Shown piece by piece: positions 482-9,690 of a stretch of DNA of 9,690 nucleotides. The position numbers and the translations under genes were made by a program. Source of the stretch: Clostridiales bacterium (lineage in GTDB: Bacteria > Bacillota_A > Clostridia > Peptostreptococcales > Anaerovoracaceae); assembly GCA_024697655.1 (NCBI GenBank), contig JAILFI010000002.1, positions 1-9,690 of the forward strand, read 5' to 3'. Below the pieces are notes generated by a model that worked only from the letters and a program-made list of their open reading frames with translations, was not told where the DNA came from and did not search any database. How positions within the stretch are numbered: the first letter of the stretch is position 1; every line of letters starts with the position of its first letter.

Positions 482-1003
482 CTACATGTATTCTTCCGCC
501 AGCACAGGTTCCCCTGCTTCCCGGGTCTTCTGCATGTCGAGGATGCGCTGGTTCCTGCTCCCGCGGAATCGCAGTGACAGATCGCGCTCCGCCAGGACGA
601 ACCGCCCGTCCACGATCATATCGCAAAGATCCAGCAGATCCTGTGTGCCGTCGCCGCTCTCCGCCTTCTTCACGAGTTCTTCATAGGTAAACCCTGTGAA
701 AGCAAAGACCGTCTTGCCTCTTTCTTTGACACCTTTTGCGATCGCCGCCATCGCCTTCGGCTGGCAGAACGGTTCGCCGCCGCTTAAAGTGATGCCGTCT
801 AAAAGCGGATCCTTATCGAATTCCGCAAGGATCCGCTCCACAGATGTCTCTCTGCCGGCACCGAACTCATGGGTGGCCGGATTGTGGCAGCCTTCACAGT
901 TGTGCGGGCAGCCCTGGCAGAACACGACGAACCGGATCCCGGGGCCGTCGACGATGGATTCGCGGACGATCCCGGCCAGATCCAGAGTCAGTGTTTCACT
1001 CAT
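482..1003 (-). CDS. nrdG: Anaerobic ribonucleoside-triphosphate reductase activating protein (radical SAM)
   Basis: NrdG is the cytoplasmic radical-SAM activase that uses a [4Fe-4S] cluster and S-adenosylmethionine to place the glycyl radical on NrdD. The 173-residue protein has the normal family length. The cluster motif Cx3Cx2C is at Cys32, Cys36 and Cys39 (GCPHNCEGC), preceded by an additional Cys29. The SAM-contacting GGEP is at residues 75-78, and the C-terminal FRGSRNQRILD stretch is typical of NrdG. The ATG at 1003 overlaps the nrdD stop codon as ATGA (4 bp), so the two genes are co-transcribed and probably translationally coupled; GGGAG lies about 9 bases upstream. A terminator follows. 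No frameshift or missing key residue is visible. Confidence 0.96.
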   Translation of the reverse strand: MSETLTLDLAGIVRESIVDGPGIRFVVFCQGCPHNCEGCHNPATHEFGAGRETSVERILAEFDKDPLLDGITLSGGEPFCQPKAMAAIAKGVKERGKTVFAFTGFTYEELVKKAESGDGTQDLLDLCDMIVDGRFVLAERDLSLRFRGSRNQRILDMQKTREAGEPVLAEEYM

Positions 1004-3390
1004 TGCAGAACGCTCCCTTCGGACCCTTCTGTCAGATCGACCGCCGGCTCGATAACATCGTGCTTGACGCGGTCAGCCTCCTCGGCGCGTTTCGCGTTGT
1101 TCCAGTGCCCCATATCGCCGACCAGATAGCCGGTGATGCGGCGGATACGTTCAAAGCCTTCATCTGCTTCGGTATCGTCGCGGCGGCCGCACATCGGGCA
1201 CTCGTTGTCGATGATGCCGGTAAAGCCGCATACCGGGTCGCGGTCGACCGGATGGTTGATGGAGCCGTAGCCGACGCCCGCTTCCTTCATACAACGGATG
1301 ATCTTCTCAAACGCATCCAGGTTCTTGAGCGGATCGCCGTCGAGTTCGACGTAGGTGATGTGACCGCCGTTGGTCAGCGCGTGATACGGCGCCTCGAGGC
1401 GGATCTTGTCGAACGCGTTGATGTTGTAATAAACCGGGATGTGGAACGAGTTCGTGTAGTAATCTCTGTCCGTCACGCCCGGGATGATGCCGAAACGCTG
1501 CTTGTCGATGCGGACAAATCTGCCGGACAGCCCTTCCGCCGGTGTTGCGATCAGCGAGAAGTTCAGGCCGTACTTCTTAGACGCCTCATCCATGCGCATT
1601 CTCATGTAACCAACGATCTCAAGCCCGAGGTTCTGCGCTTCCTGGCTCTCGCCGTGGTGAACGCCCAGCAGCGCCTTGAGACACTCGGCAAGACCAATGA
1701 AGCCCATGGTCAGTGTGCCGTGCTTGAGAACTTCGCCGACGGTATCTTCCGGCTTGAGCTTGTCGCTGTCGAGCCAGATGCCCTGGCCCATCAGGAACGG
1801 GAAGTTCTTGACCTTCTTCGCGCTCTGGATCTTGAATCTCTCGAGCAGCTGGTCAATGACCAGCGAGATCATACGGTCCAGATCATCGAAGAAGAAGTCC
1901 AGATTCTTATTCGCTTTGATCGCCAGTCTGGGCAGGTTGATCGATGTGAAGGACAGATTGCCCCTGCCGCCGACGACCTCTCTGGTCTTGTCGAAGTTGT
2001 TTGCGATAACGCGGGTACGGCAGCCCATGTACGCGCACTCCGTGTTGTGATCGGTGGGATCGTAGTACTGGAGATTGTACGGGGCGTCGAGGAACGAGAA
2101 GTTCGGGAACAGTCTCTTCGCGCTGACCCTGCAGGCCAGTTTGAACAGATCGTAGTTCGGATCGCCGGGGTTGTAGTTGACGCCTTCCTTGACCTTGAAG
2201 ATGTGGATCGGGAAGATCGCAGTCTCGCCGTTACCAAGTCCTGCCTCCGTCGCCAGCATGACGCACTCGCTGATGAGTCTGCCTTCCGTGCTGGTATCCG
2301 TTCCGTAGTTGATGGACGAGAACGGGATCTGCGCGCCGGCTCTGCTGTGCATGGTGTTGAGGTTGTGGACGAATGCTTCCATCGCCTGGTAGGTCGCTCT
2401 TCTGACCTCCTTCAGCGCGTACTTCATAGACTTCTTCTGGATCTTGACGATCTCTTCATCGGAGAGTTTGTCCCCCAGTCTGTCTTTCAGCGCGACGAGT
2501 TCTCTCTCGCAGTAATCATTATCGTTATCCATGACCGGGGAAACGCCCGCCTCTTCTTCGATGGCTTTGCCGATCTCTTTGACCATGTCGACGCTGTCTT
2601 CCACGTCGTGGAGGATGTCGAGCATCTTGCCCATGTTGGTCCAGTACAGTTTTTTAAAGGTCTTCTTGACGCCGTTGGCCATACCGTAGTCAAAATACGG
2701 AATACTCTGGCCGCCGTGCTGGTCGTTCTGGTTGGACTGGATGGCGATGCATGCCAGCGCAGAGTAGCTGGCGATGTCGTTGGGCTCTCTCAGGAAGCCG
2801 TGGCCGGTCGAAAACCCGTTGTGGAACAGCTTTTCGATATCGATCTGGCAGCAGGTCGTGGTCAGTGTGAGGAAGTCGAGGTCATGGATGTGGATGTCGC
2901 CTTCCCGGTGCGCCTTGGCATGTTCCGGTTTGAGGACGTACATTTCATAGAACTGCTTCGCGCCTTCGCTGCCGTACTTGAGCATGGTGCCCATCGCGGT
3001 GTCGCCGTCGATATTCGCGTTCTCGCGCTTGACGTCATTGTCCTTGGCCTCTTTGAAGGTCAGGTTTTCGTAGGTCTTCATCAGACGCGTGTTCATGTCA
3101 CGGACTCTGGTGCGTTCCGCTCTGTAAAGGATGTATTCTTTTGCGGTGCGCGCGTGACCGTTTTCGATGAGGATCTTCTCGACAGCATCCTGGATCTCTT
3201 CGACGGTAGGTGTATCGTTGCCTTTGATCTCCGTCAGATACAATTCCGTCTGTTTGGCCAGATAGTTGGCCATGTCGCGGTCGTGCCCGCCAAGGGCTTC
3301 CGCCGCCTTGTAGATCGCGGTCGCGATCTTGTCGATGTTAAACTCAACGGTACGTCCGTCGCGTTTTATGATCGTTTTGATGCCATCCAT
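1000..3390 (-). CDS. nrdD: Anaerobic (class III) ribonucleoside-triphosphate reductase
   Basis: NrdD reduces ribonucleoside triphosphates to dNTPs without oxygen through a glycyl radical, usually with formate as reductant. The 796 residues are ordered as follows. An ATP-cone allosteric domain spans about residues 3-95 (IIKRDGRTVEF near the start, AKEYILYR near the end). The barrel carries HIHDLDFLTLTTTCC, with Cys180/Cys181 at the place of E. coli Cys79, and YMGCRTR with Cys457 at the place of E. coli Cys290. The C-terminus has CGFTG (Cys721), CPMC (Cys731, Cys734), the glycyl-radical motif RRITGYL with Gly754, and RVKH. The E. coli zinc site has four Cys; here the position three residues before Cys721 is Asp718, so only three are visible. 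The ATG at 3390 is preceded by AGGAGGA 8 bases upstream. It is first in the nrdDG operon, with an NrdR box and promoter upstream. Confidence 0.97.
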   Translation of the reverse strand: MDGIKTIIKRDGRTVEFNIDKIATAIYKAAEALGGHDRDMANYLAKQTELYLTEIKGNDTPTVEEIQDAVEKILIENGHARTAKEYILYRAERTRVRDMNTRLMKTYENLTFKEAKDNDVKRENANIDGDTAMGTMLKYGSEGAKQFYEMYVLKPEHAKAHREGDIHIHDLDFLTLTTTCCQIDIEKLFHNGFSTGHGFLREPNDIASYSALACIAIQSNQNDQHGGQSIPYFDYGMANGVKKTFKKLYWTNMGKMLDILHDVEDSVDMVKEIGKAIEEEAGVSPVMDNDNDYCERELVALKDRLGDKLSDEEIVKIQKKSMKYALKEVRRATYQAMEAFVHNLNTMHSRAGAQIPFSSINYGTDTSTEGRLISECVMLATEAGLGNGETAIFPIHIFKVKEGVNYNPGDPNYDLFKLACRVSAKRLFPNFSFLDAPYNLQYYDPTDHNTECAYMGCRTRVIANNFDKTREVVGGRGNLSFTSINLPRLAIKANKNLDFFFDDLDRMISLVIDQLLERFKIQSAKKVKNFPFLMGQGIWLDSDKLKPEDTVGEVLKHGTLTMGFIGLAECLKALLGVHHGESQEAQNLGLEIVGYMRMRMDEASKKYGLNFSLIATPAEGLSGRFVRIDKQRFGIIPGVTDRDYYTNSFHIPVYYNINAFDKIRLEAPYHALTNGGHITYVELDGDPLKNLDAFEKIIRCMKEAGVGYGSINHPVDRDPVCGFTGIIDNECPMCGRRDDTEADEGFERIRRITGYLVGDMGHWNNAKRAEEADRVKHDVIEPAVDLTEGSEGSVLQ

Positions 3391-3523: not shown

Positions 3524-3539
3524 ACACAAGATATTGTGG
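3524..3539. promoter_or_regulatory. NrdR box upstream of nrdD
   Basis: ACACAAGATATTGTGG matches the palindromic NrdR consensus ACACwATATmTwGTGT, as I recall it, at 14 of 16 positions. NrdR is the ATP/dATP-sensing zinc-finger/ATP-cone repressor of ribonucleotide reductase operons. The box lies 18 bases downstream of the proposed nrdD -10, so bound repressor would sit over about +12 to +27. Boxes normally come in pairs about 31 bp apart; I find no good partner at that distance on either side. Confidence 0.7.
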
Positions 3540-3653: not shown

Positions 3654-3698
3654 TGACACATGTCGTGGAGGTGCGCAGCACCGCCCGGGGAGGATAGC

Positions 3699-5159
3699 AT
3701 GAACAAAACAGCCAGAAGCAACGGTTCCGCAACCGGTTCAAATAACAATATATTGAAAACTAAAATCACTGCCCTTTTGCTGGCCGTTCTGCTACTCATT
3801 TCACTGACAGGATGCACGCAGATCAGCGGACTGACCAAAGAGCGCGCGAAAGCCATCAAAGAAGATGCCGAGGCACTCCGCGTCACGCTTGAAGAAGCGT
3901 TTTCTCTCTCGGAATCGCCGTCCGAGATGCTTGACGCGGTCATCGCTTTCGCGGATGAAAACGAGATCTATTATCGAACAGTTAACGATAATGCTGTTAT
4001 TCTCGTCAAACAGGCGCCGGAAGATACCGGCGACGACGCAACGATCACGATGCATTGCAGCATCAGTCCGGACGCTGCCGAAAGCAGCGCCGCCAAAACA
4101 GCTGCGATCCTGACAGCTCTGCAGGACGCCTCCAACCACAGCCGGACGACCGCGGTCATCACTCTGCGCGATGGTCTGTTCTATACCGGCGCCATGGCGC
4201 TCCCGGCGGATTATCTCGACACGGATCGGCTGATCAACATATCGGACAGCGACAGCGCTGTGCTTTTTAAGAACAGCGCGTCTTTGGATACACATCGTTT
4301 TTCACACGAACTGTCAACCGAACCGATCGCGGATTACAAGGCTTACGAACTCAGTATCGATGGACTCAGCCGCAGCACCCCCGAACAGATCGATGAAGAA
4401 CAGACCGACCCTGTGATGATCCTGTACGAGATCCTGAACTGGTGCGAACAGACGCATATCGACTACCGGCTCTCCTCTTTCAAGGCAGGCGACAGTGTCG
4501 AGACGCTCCCGCAGAGCGCGGTGATGACCATCTCCGTCGATTCGACGGATGTCACCAAGTTCCAGAACAAAGTATACGAGATGATCCAGACCTTTAAAGA
4601 AGAACACGGAACGTCCGTCGATTCTCCTGTTTTCACGCTGCGCCACATCGAGCCGCTGACCCGCGCGATCACCCCGGAGGATACGACCGATCTGCTCGGT
4701 CTGATTTACACCCTGCTGAGCAATTTTGATTATCTCAGCAAGAACGAAACGGACACGACCGTAGGCCGGCAGGATTTCTCTCTTGTAGATATTTCGGAAG
4801 CCGAAATGAACTTCACGATCAGCTGCCGGTTTATGGATGCATCCGAAGAACATGACGACTCGAGCGCGTTTAAAGAACTCGCCCGTCTCAACAATTTCAA
4901 CGTTCTCGACCGGGAGATCTATCCCCGGTGGACGCCGGATCCGGAATCGATGACCGCAATGACGTTCGACCGGTGCGCGGAAGAAGGCAGACTTTCCCCC
5001 AAACCGGCTTCTACGGTGGACATTCTTGAAACCGGCGTTTTCGCCATAAAAAAAGAAAACCTGTCCCAGCTGGCTGTCGGGATCAGTCCGGAGGACTGTG
5101 CGAACCTGACCAAAACACTGGTCCTGTTCATCGAGACAGAGGGACAGGCGACTCTTTGA
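3699..5159 (+). CDS. Lipoprotein with degenerate PepD-like (M20 dipeptidase) fold, probable pseudoenzyme
   Basis: The start at 3699 is preferred to an ATG at 3660 because GGGGAGGA lies 5 bases before it and the signal peptide then follows normally. The 486-residue product has a basic stretch (LKTK, about 19-22), a hydrophobic core and a lipobox LTGC with Cys39, so it should be lipid-anchored outside the membrane. I align the mature part by eye, from memory, with Xaa-His dipeptidases (PepD, M20). AVILVKQ fits NVIIKK; HCS (119-121) fits HMD; residues 129-135 fit GADNGIA; TLRDGLFYTGA (155-165) fits TTDEEVGMTGA; RLINIS (177-182) fits YLINLD; a lid-like domain covers about 215-375; RWTPDPES (411-418) fits GWEYNPDS; ETGVF (444-448) fits ECGVF; GISPED (461-466) fits VHSPDE. 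Most metal and catalytic residues are therefore replaced. The frame is intact, so this is not a decayed gene. Its role is unknown; ligand or peptide binding is a guess. Confidence 0.75.
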   Translation: MNKTARSNGSATGSNNNILKTKITALLLAVLLLISLTGCTQISGLTKERAKAIKEDAEALRVTLEEAFSLSESPSEMLDAVIAFADENEIYYRTVNDNAVILVKQAPEDTGDDATITMHCSISPDAAESSAAKTAAILTALQDASNHSRTTAVITLRDGLFYTGAMALPADYLDTDRLINISDSDSAVLFKNSASLDTHRFSHELSTEPIADYKAYELSIDGLSRSTPEQIDEEQTDPVMILYEILNWCEQTHIDYRLSSFKAGDSVETLPQSAVMTISVDSTDVTKFQNKVYEMIQTFKEEHGTSVDSPVFTLRHIEPLTRAITPEDTTDLLGLIYTLLSNFDYLSKNETDTTVGRQDFSLVDISEAEMNFTISCRFMDASEEHDDSSAFKELARLNNFNVLDREIYPRWTPDPESMTAMTFDRCAEEGRLSPKPASTVDILETGVFAIKKENLSQLAVGISPEDCANLTKTLVLFIETEGQATL

Positions 5160-5185: not shown

Positions 5186-6109
5186 TCATACCGAACGGAT
5201 CCAGTTCAGCACATCCTGCATGACCGCATCCTTGTTCAGTTCATTCAGCACTTCGTGGCGGCAGTCCGGATAGAGGATCTTCGTGACCTTCCTATGACCG
5301 GTCTGTTCCAGTTTTTCGCATACCTTATCGATGCCCTTCCCGTATTCCCCGACCGGATCGAGTGCACCGCTGATCACCAGGATCGGCAGGTCAGCCGGAA
5401 CGGCGCGGAACCAGTCCGCGGTGTTGGACTGCCCGTTCACGATGACAAGGTCCTTCATCCCCTGGACGGTGAACAGATACCCGCAGTAAGGATCATCGAT
5501 ATATTGATCCACGATCGCCTCGTCGCGCGTGAGCCAGTCAAACGGCGTGCGGCCTTCAAACCGCTTGCCGTATGAACCGAACGCCAGATTGTTCATGGTG
5601 TTGCTCTTGTGTTTTTTGCCTTTCAGCGCGCCGATCAAAGACGCCATGATCCTGCCCGCTCCGCCGGCAGGATTCGGACCGCCGGTCCCCATATAGATGG
5701 CGCCTTCGAACGGATCTTCCGGATACCATGCCGTATAGAGACGGCAGATGAACGATCCCATGGAATGCCCCATGACGATGATCTTCTTATCCGGGTTTTC
5801 CCGTTTCGCTTCCAACACCATTTCACGAAAGTCTTCGACCAGTCCTTTATAGCCGTCCTTTTCTCCGAACCAGCCGGTCAGTTCGTAGTCTTTGTTGGAT
5901 CTGCCGTGATTGGCCATGTCATGCATGTAGACTGCCACGCCGTTCTCACACAGGTATTCGATGAACCCCAGATACCGTCTCCTGTGTTCCGCCATCCCGT
6001 GGTGGATGACCAGAACAGTCTCAAAAGCGCCATCCTCCGGCGTATAGACACTGGCATCGATCTGACTGACACCGGTCGCGGATGCGAAGGTAAAATCTCT
6101 CGTCTTCAT
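5186..6109 (-). CDS. Alpha/beta hydrolase, lysophospholipase / monoglyceride lipase type
   Basis: This 307-residue serine hydrolase belongs to the alpha/beta-hydrolase fold (Hydrolase_4/S33-like, PldB group); members cleave esters such as lysophospholipids or monoacylglycerols. The oxyanion region HHGMAEHRRRY starts at residue 36. The nucleophile elbow is GHSMGS with Ser116, the acid is probably Asp251 (SGALDP), and the base is His285 (CRHEVLNE), so the triad is complete. No signal peptide is visible, so the enzyme is probably cytoplasmic. The ATG at 6109 has AAAGGAA about 11 bases upstream, slightly far. It is the last of the minus-strand run, 67 bp after the DUF362 gene, and ends 26 bp from the converging lipoprotein gene. 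The family is clear; the substrate is not. Confidence 0.9.
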   Translation of the reverse strand: MKTRDFTFASATGVSQIDASVYTPEDGAFETVLVIHHGMAEHRRRYLGFIEYLCENGVAVYMHDMANHGRSNKDYELTGWFGEKDGYKGLVEDFREMVLEAKRENPDKKIIVMGHSMGSFICRLYTAWYPEDPFEGAIYMGTGGPNPAGGAGRIMASLIGALKGKKHKSNTMNNLAFGSYGKRFEGRTPFDWLTRDEAIVDQYIDDPYCGYLFTVQGMKDLVIVNGQSNTADWFRAVPADLPILVISGALDPVGEYGKGIDKVCEKLEQTGHRKVTKILYPDCRHEVLNELNKDAVMQDVLNWIRSV

Positions 6110-6158
6110 TGATTTTGCGATTCCTTTCTTATTAAGAGCGATAACAGATACATGTGAA

Positions 6159-6175
6159 GACGCTGCTGAAGCGTC
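6159..6175. repeat. Inverted repeat between the DUF362 and hydrolase genes
   Basis: GACGCT (6159-6164), loop GCTGA, AGCGTC (6170-6175) is a perfect 6-bp stem directly after the DUF362 stop codon. No T-run follows on the minus strand, so it is a poor terminator; it could stabilise or attenuate the message. Confidence 0.35.
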
Positions 6176-6176
6176 A

Positions 6177-7370
6177 TCAGTTGTACCGGACGCCGTATTC
6201 TTTCCGGTCTCCTAAAACACCTTTGACAACATCGACGTTGCCGGGCGGACAGCCGACGACCCAGCGCAGCCCTTTTGCTTCCGCCAGTTTTCGGCAGCAT
6301 ATCCCGATGCAGACCGTATTGTCCGCATCGGCGCCTTCCGGCAGCATCTCCTCTGTACAGGGACCGACGCAGACATTCATGCCCTCCAGGTATGGGAACA
6401 GATCCTGCGCCTTCATATCCATCAGGGCGCTGATGACTGTATTATGGCAGCCCGTACAGGCATCTTTCGCGAAGACCAGATTGAACGAATCCGGGATCCC
6501 TTCGATTTCTACCTCGCAGGAGCGCTTGAACCGGCTCGCGACCTCTTCGATCTGCTTTCCGATGACTTCGATCTTCGCAAGATCCATCTCCCCGAAGCCG
6601 CGGTCATACGCCGCCTTGGTGATCATGACCTCCTCCGGTTCATAGCCCATGATCTTGCCGGTCACCGCTTCACAGGCGACAAGATCCTTGGAACCTATGA
6701 TCAGATCCATGCGTTTCGTCTCGCCGAAGATCGGTCCGAGCCCCTGCTGCCCGTACGTACCGTCTACGATCTCCAGGCAGGGCTTGAGGTACAGATTCCA
6801 GTCGACGACACCTTCGATCAGTCCTTTCTTGTGGAAGTCTTTTTTCTGTGTATCCACGAGCAGACCCTTGAGGTTTTTCATACCGAGCGTGATCTCGGTC
6901 TGGTCGTGAGTCTTCATGACCGGCACGGTGATGATGGCATCGCAGTCACGGACCAGCTCCCAGGTGTCGATCTCACGAAAGACGATCCCGTCCCCGATGT
7001 CGAGTCTGATGCGGGCGTTTTCCTTCGCCTTCAGATCGATGACCGGGATTCCCTGTTCACGCAGCTGCTGATAGCCGCATTTTTCGATGGTGAGCTCGGT
7101 ATCCGCGCCGGCTGCGGAAGACTCCGCTATCACGGGAACCGCCCCCTCCGCCTTCACTGCTTCGTAAAGCGCCAGACAGACCTCCCAGCGCGTGATGCCG
7201 CCGGAGAGCCGGTCTGTCGGGCAGGCTACCAGATTTGGTTTGATAATGACCTTATCACCCGGCTTGATGATATCCGAAAGCCCGCCGATGTCCGCAAGGA
7301 CCTGGTCGACGGTCTCTTTAATGGCAGCATAGTCATCGCCGCCCGTTTTACGCACAGATACAACTGACAT
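6177..7370 (-). CDS. DUF362 family protein with cysteine-rich C-terminus
   Basis: The 397-residue protein shows the DUF362 core: VIIKPNLVA (about 41-49), PVIAESS, DAIITVPVMKTH (134-145), and MKNLKG (164-169). The function of DUF362 is not established; members often occur with ferredoxin domains. Here the usual paired CxxCxxCxxxC ferredoxin motif is absent. The last 100 residues instead carry CTGC (Cys305, Cys308), CVGPC (Cys334, Cys338), CIGICC (Cys354, Cys358, Cys359) and GCPPGN (Cys374), which suggests a metal or Fe-S site. There is no signal peptide or membrane segment, so it is likely cytoplasmic. The ATG at 7370 follows a strong AAAGGAGG. It lies 55 bp after the MBL-fold gene with no promoter in between, so it is probably co-transcribed with it. 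The family call is confident; the activity is unknown. Confidence 0.85.
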   Translation of the reverse strand: MSVVSVRKTGGDDYAAIKETVDQVLADIGGLSDIIKPGDKVIIKPNLVACPTDRLSGGITRWEVCLALYEAVKAEGAVPVIAESSAAGADTELTIEKCGYQQLREQGIPVIDLKAKENARIRLDIGDGIVFREIDTWELVRDCDAIITVPVMKTHDQTEITLGMKNLKGLLVDTQKKDFHKKGLIEGVVDWNLYLKPCLEIVDGTYGQQGLGPIFGETKRMDLIIGSKDLVACEAVTGKIMGYEPEEVMITKAAYDRGFGEMDLAKIEVIGKQIEEVASRFKRSCEVEIEGIPDSFNLVFAKDACTGCHNTVISALMDMKAQDLFPYLEGMNVCVGPCTEEMLPEGADADNTVCIGICCRKLAEAKGLRWVVGCPPGNVDVVKGVLGDRKEYGVRYN

Positions 7371-7425
7371 GTGTATCCTCCTTTCCCCGCTCCGCGCAGC
7401 AGGCGCCGGGCAGGCGTTCCTGTGA

Positions 7426-8067
7426 TCAATCCCGGATAATGTTCCGCACTTCGACGGCGGGATCCACCAGCGATGCGAACCTGTCGCCGTCGCTCTTCTT
7501 CCCTACTATAGTACCGTAATGGGTCGGAATCGCCACCGCAGGGCGGATCGTATTGATCAGTGCCGCGGCTTCCTTTGCGTCCATTGTGAACTTGCCGCCG
7601 ACCGGTACGAGCGCGATGTCGCAGGCAACTGCACTGTTCTCGTCCGTCTTATCCGTATCTCCGGCGATGAAAACACGCTTTCCGTCCGTATGCAGAATAT
7701 ACCCGATCCATCCGGCGCTCTTCGGATGGAATGGTTTGAGACGATTGTAGGAAGCGACTGTTTCAAAGGAAAGGCCGGCGATCCGGTATTTCCTGCCGGG
7801 CATGACCGTTTCGATCCGTTCAAACGCCAGCCCGGTCCCGGCTGCTTTGGCAGCCAGTTTTTCCGGTACGACAAGTACCGTTGACGGTCCGATGACCCCG
7901 GCCAGATCGTCCGGTGAAAAATGATCGTAGTGATCGTGTGTGATCAGGATCAGGTCTGCGTCATGCGGTGCATCCTTCATGCGGAACGGGTCGATATACA
8001 CATTGCCCGCTTCGCAGCGAATGCGGATGCTGCTCTGGGTGAACACTTCGATATTCGAAATATCCAT
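7426..8067 (-). CDS. MBL-fold metal-dependent hydrolase (UlaG-like)
   Basis: The 213-residue protein belongs to the metallo-beta-lactamase superfamily, in the short UlaG/YtkL-like group of cytoplasmic metal hydrolases. The metal-binding motif THDHYDH gives His44, Asp45, His46, Asp48 and His49. GDTD (Asp137) supplies the bridging acid, and PTHYG (His183) supplies the last histidine. The N-terminal IRIRCEAGNVYIDPF strand pattern is typical of the group. Length is normal and all metal ligands are present. The ATG at 8067 is preceded by AAAGGAGGG. It starts 39 bp after the BASS symporter stop codon, with its own promoter candidate overlapping that stop. Substrate unknown; UlaG-type lactonase activity or phosphodiester cleavage are possible but unproven. 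Confidence 0.9.
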   Translation of the reverse strand: MDISNIEVFTQSSIRIRCEAGNVYIDPFRMKDAPHDADLILITHDHYDHFSPDDLAGVIGPSTVLVVPEKLAAKAAGTGLAFERIETVMPGRKYRIAGLSFETVASYNRLKPFHPKSAGWIGYILHTDGKRVFIAGDTDKTDENSAVACDIALVPVGGKFTMDAKEAAALINTIRPAVAIPTHYGTIVGKKSDGDRFASLVDPAVEVRNIIRD

Positions 8068-8085
8068 GGTCCCTCCTTTCCCGTT

Positions 8086-8100
8086 CTTCCATATAGGAAG
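8086..8100. repeat. Inverted repeat at the predicted start site upstream of the MBL gene
   Basis: CTTCC (8086-8090), ATATA, GGAAG (8096-8100) is a perfect 5-bp dyad with a 5-base centre. It directly follows the -10 and covers the likely +1, a position suited to a repressor site; it could equally be a small 5' stem in the message. Confidence 0.4.
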
Positions 8101-8109
8101 ATTATATCA
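8101..8109 (-). promoter_or_regulatory. Extended -10 promoter candidate for the MBL-DUF362-hydrolase genes
   Basis: The minus strand reads TGATATAAT: a TGn extension plus a perfect TATAAT (8106-8101), overlapping the TGA stop of the BASS gene. No TTGACA-like -35 lies at 17 bases. Transcription would start near 8094, about 17 bases before the ribosome binding site. Confidence 0.5.
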
Positions 8110-9066
8110 CACTTCTCCGGAAGATGATCCTTTGGAGGATACGCGCTGCAGGATCCCCGCCAGGACCGCGCCGGAAATGTTATGCCATACCGAAAAGATG
8201 GCGCCGGGAACCGTCGCCATGGCAAGGTCGGGAAACGCCGTTCCAGCCAGTGCCGTTGCCAGCCCGGAGTTCTGCATGCCGATCTCGACAGAGATGGCTT
8301 TCGTCTGCGGTGTGTCCAGTTTCAGCAGCCTGCCGATCCCGAACCCGCAGGTGTACCCGAGCAGATTGTGCAGGATCACGACCGCAAAGACGACCGCACC
8401 GGTCGACAGGATCTTTTCCGCGTTGTGCGATACGACCGCCATCACGATCAGGCAGATCGCGGTGACGGACACCAGCGGCAGGATCTTTGCAAAGGAGGCC
8501 GTAAAACGGCCGAGGAAGCGATTCACCAGCAGTCCCAATACGATCGGAATGATCACGACCTGCACGACCGACAGAAACATGCTCCACACGTCCACCTCTA
8601 CGGACGTATGCAGGAACAAATACGTGACTGCCGGGGTCAGAAGCGGTGCGAGAAGCGTGTTCACGCTCGTCATGCCGACCGACAGCGCGACGTCGCCGCC
8701 CGCCAGATACGTGATGACATTGCTGGAGGTGCCACCCGGGCAGGTCCCCACCAGGATCACCCCTGCGAGCAGCGCTGTATCGAGATGAAACGCCATTCCG
8801 AGACCGTATGCCAGCAGCGGCATGATGGTGAACTGGCTGATACACCCGAGCAGGATGTTCCTCGGATGTTGAAAAACGTATTTGAAGTCCTCCGTTTTCA
8901 GTGTCAGCCCCATGCCGAACATGACGAGCATCAGAAGATAGTTGATCCACCCCGTCTGCACCCACAATGCAGTCTTCGGGCAGAACAGCGAAAGAGCAGC
9001 GATCACGAGAACAATGACCGCCATGTATTTACCGACAAATGCACTGATCTTTTCAAGTGCCTGCAA
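8107..9066 (-). CDS. Bile acid:sodium symporter (BASS) family transporter
   Basis: This inner-membrane secondary carrier belongs to the BASS family, which imports organic anions (bile acids, keto acids, pantoate and others) with Na+. With a TTG start at 9066 it has 319 residues, the normal length, and about ten hydrophobic segments. TCPGGTSSN (108-116) and EIGMQN (261-266) match the crossover helices. Glu261, Gln265 and Asn116 correspond, as I recall them, to the sodium-site residues Glu260, Gln264 and Asn115 of the Neisseria ASBT homologue. The start was chosen because AAGGAAGGAG lies 7 bases before TTG at 9066. An ATG at 9132 would add an arginine-rich extension that overlaps the upstream gene and lacks such a site. 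It lies 16 bp after the upstream membrane-protein gene, so the two probably share a transcript. The substrate cannot be told. Confidence 0.9.
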   Translation of the reverse strand: MQALEKISAFVGKYMAVIVLVIAALSLFCPKTALWVQTGWINYLLMLVMFGMGLTLKTEDFKYVFQHPRNILLGCISQFTIMPLLAYGLGMAFHLDTALLAGVILVGTCPGGTSSNVITYLAGGDVALSVGMTSVNTLLAPLLTPAVTYLFLHTSVEVDVWSMFLSVVQVVIIPIVLGLLVNRFLGRFTASFAKILPLVSVTAICLIVMAVVSHNAEKILSTGAVVFAVVILHNLLGYTCGFGIGRLLKLDTPQTKAISVEIGMQNSGLATALAGTAFPDLAMATVPGAIFSVWHNISGAVLAGILQRVSSKGSSSGEV

Positions 9067-9082
9067 GCGCAAGCTCCTTCCT

Positions 9083-9690
9083 TCAGCCGGGGAGATACGG
9101 GATATACTGCCTGAGCGCCACCGCCAGAACAAGACCGGCGAGCAAAGCGATCGCCGTCTGTTTCGGCGTCTTGTACAGCACGGCTGCGGCGGCGAGGAAG
9201 ATCACGGTATTGGCCGCGTCGAGAAGATAAAAATACCAATGTCCTACGCTAAAGCAGTTCATGGCCATCACCCACAGAATCAACGTGCTGAGAACGATGG
9301 ACGGTGTGGTGCCCCCTTTCGCGTACCAGCACAGGACCGCCATGACCGGTGATACCAGCGTGATGCCGTACCAGATCAGCATGTAGCTGCCTGGGTCGAA
9401 TCCGCTGAACAAAATCGAATAGAGATGGTACGCGGCGCACATGCCCGCAAAGAATACGAATACATTGACGGCGGCTTTTCCCGGTGTGTCACTGAACACT
9501 GCGATGATGAGCGCAAACAGCAGCCAGGGCGCCAGCGCCGTGAAGAGATTACCAGGATCGAGTCGCTCCAGGACGCGCAGCCAAAGAACCGCAACGTCAA
9601 AGACCAGACTGACAAGCGACTTGGCAGCAAAACCCACAAACATGCCAAATACGAAAAACAGAACTGTATTCCGCACCGACTTCTTTTTAT
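9083..9690 (-). CDS. Polytopic membrane protein of unknown family, 5' end outside the window
   Basis: I do not recognise this protein. About 200 residues are visible, with six or seven hydrophobic segments: VLFFVFGMFVGF, then LAPWLLFALIIAVF, FVFFAGMCAAY, WYGITLVSPVMAVL, STLILWVMAM, NTVIFLAAAAVLY and IALLAGLVLAVAL. It ends RQYIPYLPG. There are no conserved charged motifs within the membrane segments. A GTG at 9676 could be the start (197 residues), but no ribosome binding site is visible in the 14 bases before it. The frame stays open to the edge and encodes KKKS just before, a typical N-terminus, so the true start is probably a few codons beyond the window. It is followed after 16 bp by the BASS symporter and is likely in its operon. 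Confidence 0.7.
   Translation of the reverse strand, partial: KKKSVRNTVLFFVFGMFVGFAAKSLVSLVFDVAVLWLRVLERLDPGNLFTALAPWLLFALIIAVFSDTPGKAAVNVFVFFAGMCAAYHLYSILFSGFDPGSYMLIWYGITLVSPVMAVLCWYAKGGTTPSIVLSTLILWVMAMNCFSVGHWYFYLLDAANTVIFLAAAAVLYKTPKQTAIALLAGLVLAVALRQYIPYLPG

Follow-up and report, generated by a model that had tools for sequence, protein, structure and literature searches.

PepD, an aminoacyl-histidine dipeptidase of the M20 family (NCBIfam model TIGR01893; PDB 3mru from Vibrio and 2qyv from Haemophilus), is a cytoplasmic enzyme (PMC6271292). Its metal ligands are His80, Asp119, Glu150, Asp173 and His461, the role of Glu150 being called ambiguous, and its catalytic residues are Asp82 and Glu149 (PMC6271292). 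The lid domain of PepD, with residues His219, Asn260 and Arg369, serves both for dimerisation and for binding of the substrate carboxylate, and the homodimer forms through this lid (PMC6271292). The M20 dipeptidases PepV and Sapep (PDB 1lfw and 3khx) share the two-domain clam, and PepV has a matching lid residue, Arg350 (PMC6271292).

In this work, we analysed a gene located in a 9,690-nucleotide stretch of the genome of a Clostridiales bacterium (contig JAILFI010000002.1), hereafter called the window. The gene (3699..5159, + strand) was identified by its open reading frame, lipobox, NCBIfam and profile-profile matches and a family alignment, and encodes a PepD-derived lipoprotein of 486 amino acids predicted to be catalytically empty. 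From its sequence, the protein is very probably exported and non-catalytic. An original prediction, made from the letters of the window, had already proposed an exported, non-catalytic PepD relative. Lipoprotein nature, PepD ancestry and loss of catalysis hold and now rest on a whole clade, whereas the supposed surviving metal ligand proved wrong, as did two of five proposed motif correspondences. Pseudoenzymes themselves are common, and this one would be of the PepD type, exported and anchored. No paper on an exported inactive PepD family was recognised among the listings of an open-access library, and none of the Pfam and NCBIfam families used here names an exported pseudo-M20 clade. In a review of inactive metallopeptidases, a term search finds 'M20' twice, both times inside a reference identifier (PMC11266112).

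Homology to PepD and the former metal site

The 486-codon frame is intact, and a sequence resembling a ribosome-binding site, GGGGAGG (3687-3693), lies five bases ahead of the ATG. By its signal peptide and lipobox LTG-Cys39 (3699..3815, + strand; Cys codon 3813-3815), the product is a predicted bacterial lipoprotein, in agreement with the original prediction, and Cys39 is invariant in the 11 aligned proteins including that of the window. A search of a database of 5.8 billion proteins gave ten full-length relatives, 56-97% identical, and a third protein-database search, with the wide alignment, returned the identical ten; together with the window protein they constitute the window family (n = 11). 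A scan of genome contigs added one locus, L001, from an uncultured Clostridiales metagenome-assembled genome, whose protein is 66.5% identical and which has nrdG and nrdD on the matching side. A scan of viral contigs gave one short match.

The window protein is matched by TIGR01893 (E 6.6e-24, 84.4 bits), without reaching the curated cut-off of 343.75; the relatives L003, L005, L016 and L017 score 95-196 bits. Profile-profile comparison (hhalign) with PepD gave E 2.2e-51, with a common domain order, and the PepD structure 2qyv was matched by sequence with E 2.7e-8. The TIGR01893 and profile-profile values place the homology well above chance, and on this basis the window protein is judged homologous to PepD across both domains and over most of its mature part, as had been proposed. 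A Pfam scan of the window protein yielded nothing above the gathering score, including Peptidase_M20 (PF01546) and M20_dimer (PF07687), the latter remaining below its cut-off in L016 and L017 as well (18.5 versus 21 bits). PepD was the best structure match of both predicted models, including by Foldseek; with the low mean confidence of these models, the predicted fold is of the M20/PepD type. PepV and Sapep, which are active metalloenzymes, matched less well (Foldseek E 2.1e-8 and 5.1e-10). GPAA1 of the eukaryotic glycosylphosphatidylinositol transamidase (PDB 7wld, 8imy) matched the catalytic part only, and we claim no kinship.

To compare active sites, PepD residue positions were transferred by motif through the active clostridial PepD L027, in an alignment of 85 proteins. 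At the five ligand positions, the window protein has Ser121, a deletion, Gly159, Ser182 and a second deletion, so that none of the five is kept; the catalytic Asp82 and Glu149 correspond to Ser123 and Asp158. Among the lid positions, His219 and Asn260 are replaced by Thr227 and Glu268, and only Arg369 is kept, as Arg377 (4827..4829, + strand). PepD thus has the metal ligands and both site loops, whereas the window protein has neither. It shares with PepD the domain order, the closest fold and, in the window family, the lid arginine.

The segment MHCSIS (residues 118-123; 4050..4067, + strand) is the counterpart of LQGHMD in PepD, Ser121 standing for His80 and Ser123 for Asp82. His119, previously taken for the one ligand retained, falls on the glutamine before GHMD. 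In hhalign it lies likewise on this glutamine, but GHMDIV is gapped there and Cys120 is placed on the following cysteine; by either alignment the ligand histidine is gone. A pairwise alignment of the window protein with one active PepD put GHMD elsewhere and was not used. In the common column, Cys120 (4056-4058) is a cysteine in 11/11 proteins of the window family, 47/67 other deletion-clade proteins and 0/34 active PepDs. Further on, Arg157-Asp158-Gly159 (4167..4175, + strand) replaces the DEE motif containing Glu149 and Glu150, and Ser182 (4242..4244, + strand) replaces Asp173; both replacements had been read correctly from the sequence.

The two remaining ligands have disappeared with the loops that carried them. 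Alignment and segment lengths show a deletion of 32 residues, the bridging ligand Asp119 among them, at a junction around residues 124-130 (4068..4088, + strand). Measured from where the GADNG motif begins up to the next conserved histidine, the segment comprises 29 residues in 11/11 proteins of the window family and 29-33 in 67/67 other members, versus 60-73 (median 61) in 34/34 active PepDs. At a second, C-terminal junction (about Gly461-Ser463; 5079..5087, + strand), 12 residues with His461 are missing, and the corresponding stretch has 11 residues in all 78 deletion-bearing proteins (11/11 and 67/67), versus 23 in 34/34 active PepDs. The original prediction had instead read these places as substitutions, Ala131 for the Asp of GADNG and GISPED for VHSPDE with Ile462 in place of His. 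The wide alignment and the segment lengths rule out this register, including His119 as a ligand, and where one ligand of five had been thought to remain, there is none.

Since the first deletion served to delimit the deletion class, and possession of all five ligands the active class, independent evidence comes only from the second deletion, the trees, the leaders and the synteny. The active PepDs are mostly best-scoring TIGR01893 matches, among which the typical enzyme is over-represented. The second deletion was found in 78/78 proteins with the first deletion and in 0/47 others. The changes proved conserved among homologues: in the ten relatives both deletions, Ser121, Asp158 and Gly159 do not vary, Ser182 is replaced only in P0007 (by Gly), and position 157 is occupied by Arg, Lys or Gln.

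None of the 78 deletion-bearing proteins retains His80 or His461. The other positions, given for the window family and the other members, are Asp173 in 0/11 and 20/67, Glu149 in 0/11 and 16/67, Glu150 in 0/11 and 4/67, His219 in 0/11 and 1/67, and Asn260 in 0/11 and 12/67. The Asp119 column, at the edge of the gap, gives 1/11 and 10/67, and the Asp82 column gives 11/29 in a smaller alignment and 0/67 in the larger one, where it falls in a gap. Only the Arg369 equivalent, out of ten functional PepD residues, is kept in all 11 proteins of the window family, and it is found in 29/67 other members.

Membrane anchoring and history of the clade

The leaders of the 78 deletion-clade proteins comprise 59 lipobox-like sequences, 18 N-terminal transmembrane segments and one hydrophobic N-terminus without Cys (L077). 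Fifty-seven were recognised by pattern and the rest, including L109, L127 and P0005, were judged by eye. No export leader was found in 50 active PepDs (34 + 16), L145 being counted apart and L157 and L160 being read from their likelier Met; in these two active proteins, hydrophobic stretches occur only upstream of that Met, within the stop-to-stop frame. PepD is cytoplasmic (PMC6271292), whereas the window protein has a leader with a lipobox, from which we infer an outward, membrane-tethered location. The exchange of lipobox and transmembrane segment within the clade suggests that membrane location belongs to the job of the protein.

In three overlapping trees, the deletion-bearing proteins formed one side of a single branch: 40/40 (support 100/99), 77/77 (Shimodaira-Hasegawa-like approximate likelihood ratio test 99, quick search) and 35/35 (100/100). 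L127 is absent from the second of these trees, and the third was built without 19 rows, which were near-copies, a duplicate (L162) and the active PepD from genome G001 (L155). A set of anchored proteins that retain the loops and lack the ligand set branches between the deletion clade and the active PepDs. We observed 15 such forms (11, plus L141 and L142, plus L146 and L147), among which L076 is placed elsewhere; in 13/13 of the anchored loop-keeping forms measured, the first stretch has 51-84 residues and the second 22-23.

L145 (genome G442) branches between the active and inactive sets and has all ligands, catalytic and lid residues. Its N-terminus consists of a K/R-rich tail, a possible transmembrane segment and a Pro-rich linker, the segment being weak: its best 15-residue hydropathy is 1.47, whereas values of 1.89-3.85 were obtained for 12 of 13 anchored proteins with loops; for the remaining one, L076, a truncated start had been scored. 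A rule that exported means inactive could not be upheld in view of L145. The lipoprotein L076 (G028:C32) has lost its ligands, has a loop enlarged to 58 residues and groups, on a long branch, with the cytoplasmic active PepDs L062-L065. It may represent a second, independent export and inactivation, or a misplacement. In view of this grouping, one common export of all the inactive proteins could not be upheld either.

The series active, anchored, ligand-less and loop-less exists among present-day proteins. Provided that the tree is rooted within the active enzymes, the simplest reading of the sequences would be that the enzyme acquired an anchor, then lost its ligands and finally its loops. 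Since intermediates survive, namely the 15 anchored loop-bearing forms and L145, possibly anchored and with a full site, this route from enzyme to surface pseudoenzyme could be traced step by step.

Constraint and possible function

The ratio of nonsynonymous to synonymous substitution rates (dN/dS) was 0.149 between the window gene and L001, at a synonymous divergence (dS) of 1.57 that is near saturation, and 0.041, 0.104 and 0.138 in three other pairs; in a fourth further pair dS was saturated. Judged by these ratios, the gene is under purifying selection. A decaying pseudogene or an artefact of gene prediction would account for the fast divergence from L001 (66.5% identity, versus 94% for the neighbouring NrdD). 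However, given the long open frames of the 78 proteins examined, dN/dS values of 0.04-0.15 in four pairs, the fixed deletions and a stable chromosomal position (see below), this explanation is hardly credible, and it was ruled out.

In the deletion clade, mean identity is highest in the lid domain (roughly residues 196-405, as delimited by eye; 4284..4913, + strand), with 0.275 versus 0.263 in the first catalytic part and 0.240 and 0.165 in the others. In active PepDs, the catalytic parts (0.545, 0.544 and 0.486) are clearly ahead of the lid (0.351). The lid domain also contains much of the confident part of the structural models. This shift of relative constraint to the lid suggests the docking of a partner or of a peptide end. 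Taken as a whole, we consider as the best explanation, with confidence that does not exceed an even balance, a lipid-anchored surface pseudo-dipeptidase whose lid domain docks a partner or a peptide without cutting it; docking by the lid, considered alone as the function, falls slightly short of that balance.

M20 catalysis depends on the metal site. In the proposed scenario, an ancestral PepD would have become membrane-anchored and lost its metal ligands and then, in the window lineage, the loops with the bridging Asp and the last His. With the complete site lost, the dimetal centre would not be bound and no peptide hydrolysis by the M20 mechanism would be expected. The lid, held at the outer face of the membrane, would do most of the remaining work. 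Probably acting as a homodimer, it would dock either a partner protein or a peptide by its carboxylate end, without cutting. We infer this order of events, the dimer, the ligand, the partner and the role of the lid. An old enzyme scaffold therefore seems to be reused for a non-cutting job on the cell surface, and automatic annotation may label as dipeptidases proteins for which the sequence evidence argues otherwise.

Several observations weigh against this explanation. The lead of the lid in the deletion clade is small, and it is absent in the window family, where all parts are about equal at 0.60-0.69. In the loop-bearing anchored forms the lid (0.261) lies behind the two N-terminal catalytic parts (0.379 and 0.327), the third being at 0.248. 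Outside the window family, the carboxylate-binding Arg is present in only 29/67 members, and the lid His219 (1/67) and Asn260 (12/67) are mostly lost. No partner gene is known. Moreover, all 11 proteins of the window family have Asp158 where PepD has the catalytic Glu149, and the models are weak, with mean predicted local distance difference test (pLDDT) values of 59.6 and 60.1 and a former site that is unusable (pLDDT <50).

These last two points also speak in favour of a hydrolase with a new site or without metal. The original prediction had expected an M20 fold lacking its dimetal site: the fold agrees with both models, while the absence of a rebuilt site was judged from sequence only, the site region of the models being unreliable. 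In its favour, Asp158, His119, His199, His253 and His385 do not vary among the 11 members of the window family. Against it, conservation of any single His, Asp or Glu does not exceed 41/67 members outside that family, and all five ligands and two loops are gone, which makes a surviving hydrolase very improbable.

The protein might instead be a peptide or amino-acid receptor, in which the two-domain clam closes through Arg377 on the C-terminal carboxylate of a peptide and hands it to a transporter or a sensor, like a solute-binding lipoprotein. Peptide or amino-acid binding, suggested in the original prediction, is possible because the substrate-carboxylate Arg of the lid is kept throughout the window family, and Arg377 would fit carboxylate binding; this residue is also the best kept of the ten elsewhere (29/67), and the lipid anchor would place the protein on the outside. 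Replacement of Arg369 by Ala abolished PepD activity, and the PepV counterpart was ascribed to substrate binding (PMC6271292). However, Asn260 and His219 are mostly lost, the Arg is absent in 38/67 members, and no transporter family recurs among the neighbours, which were clustered and are mostly unannotated, one family being read as half of an ATP-binding cassette transporter in 3/34 loci. We regard a receptor as rather less likely than not. The same tentative standing applies to a fuller account, in which a clostridial family arose from a PepD moved outside the membrane, whose metal site vanished through ligand loss and two fixed deletions and which came to recognise carboxylates at the surface, as a receptor or for docking.

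The homodimerisation of PepD through its lid (PMC6271292), and the regulation of active cousins that pseudopeptidases sometimes exert (PMC11266112), would also accommodate a pseudo-subunit pairing through the lid with an active peptidase and regulating it. This is improbable, as the 50 active PepDs have no export leader and the two proteins would not meet. Moreover, among 39 deletion-clade genomes from a set of 196, counted by hand and including several possibly incomplete assemblies, a PepD over the NCBIfam cut-off is present in 16 (G001 included) and not in 23, which disfavours an active PepD as the partner.

Chromosomal place and distribution

In the window, the gene is divergent from nrdD (1000..3390, - strand; Pfam NRDD), next to which lies nrdG (482..1003, - strand; Pfam Fer4_12/Radical_SAM), and this neighbourhood is conserved. 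At 59/65 deletion-clade loci, one or more of the genes recG, yloU (Asp23 family), nrdG, nrdD and a GNAT gene lie upstream and divergent; each name comes from a Pfam search with a single member, and L090 and L132 have no such mark other than the GNAT gene. Such genes lie downstream on the same strand at five loci (L099, L115, L116, L123 and L134), and L070, with 994 bases of DNA upstream, has none of the set.

In the order of L001, at least 123 of 393 sampled genomes had a match starting in the first 40 profile positions (counted by hand). One of them, G063, is a loop-bearing form, leaving at least about 122 genomes. Both deletions are present in 38/38 genes taken from the order-level set, which were obtained by score ahead of classing. 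In an even sample of the class, 5/291 genomes had a full-length match among the matches listed, each of them belonging to the order sample as well. The presence of the clade in at least about 122 of 393 genomes of one order, at one chromosomal place in 59/65 loci, suggests a conserved surface function.

The loop-bearing anchored forms mostly adjoin recG and/or a desulfoferrodoxin gene, or glgB. The desulfoferrodoxin gene lies 66-141 bases 3' on the same strand in L067, L068, L071, L073, L074 and L075, all loop-bearing inactive lipoproteins (Pfam on the L068 copy). An anchored inactive subgroup (L066, L080, L081, L141 and L142) is divergent from glgB, followed in L066, L080 and L081 by glgC-like and glycogen-synthase-like genes (Pfam on the L081 copies).

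On the other side of the window gene, the opposite strand (5186-9132) encodes an alpha/beta hydrolase, a DUF362 protein, a beta-lactamase-fold protein and an SBF-family transporter; DUF362 and beta-lactamase-fold genes follow likewise in L001. Finally, the divergent region common to nrdDG and the lipoprotein gene contains the site ACACAAGATATTGTGG (3524-3539), palindromic at 12/16 positions, downstream of a minus-strand promoter-like site (3586-3558). A near-copy occurs in L001 at 9825, with about 68 similar bases around it (by eye). The site resembles an NrdR box for nrdDG.
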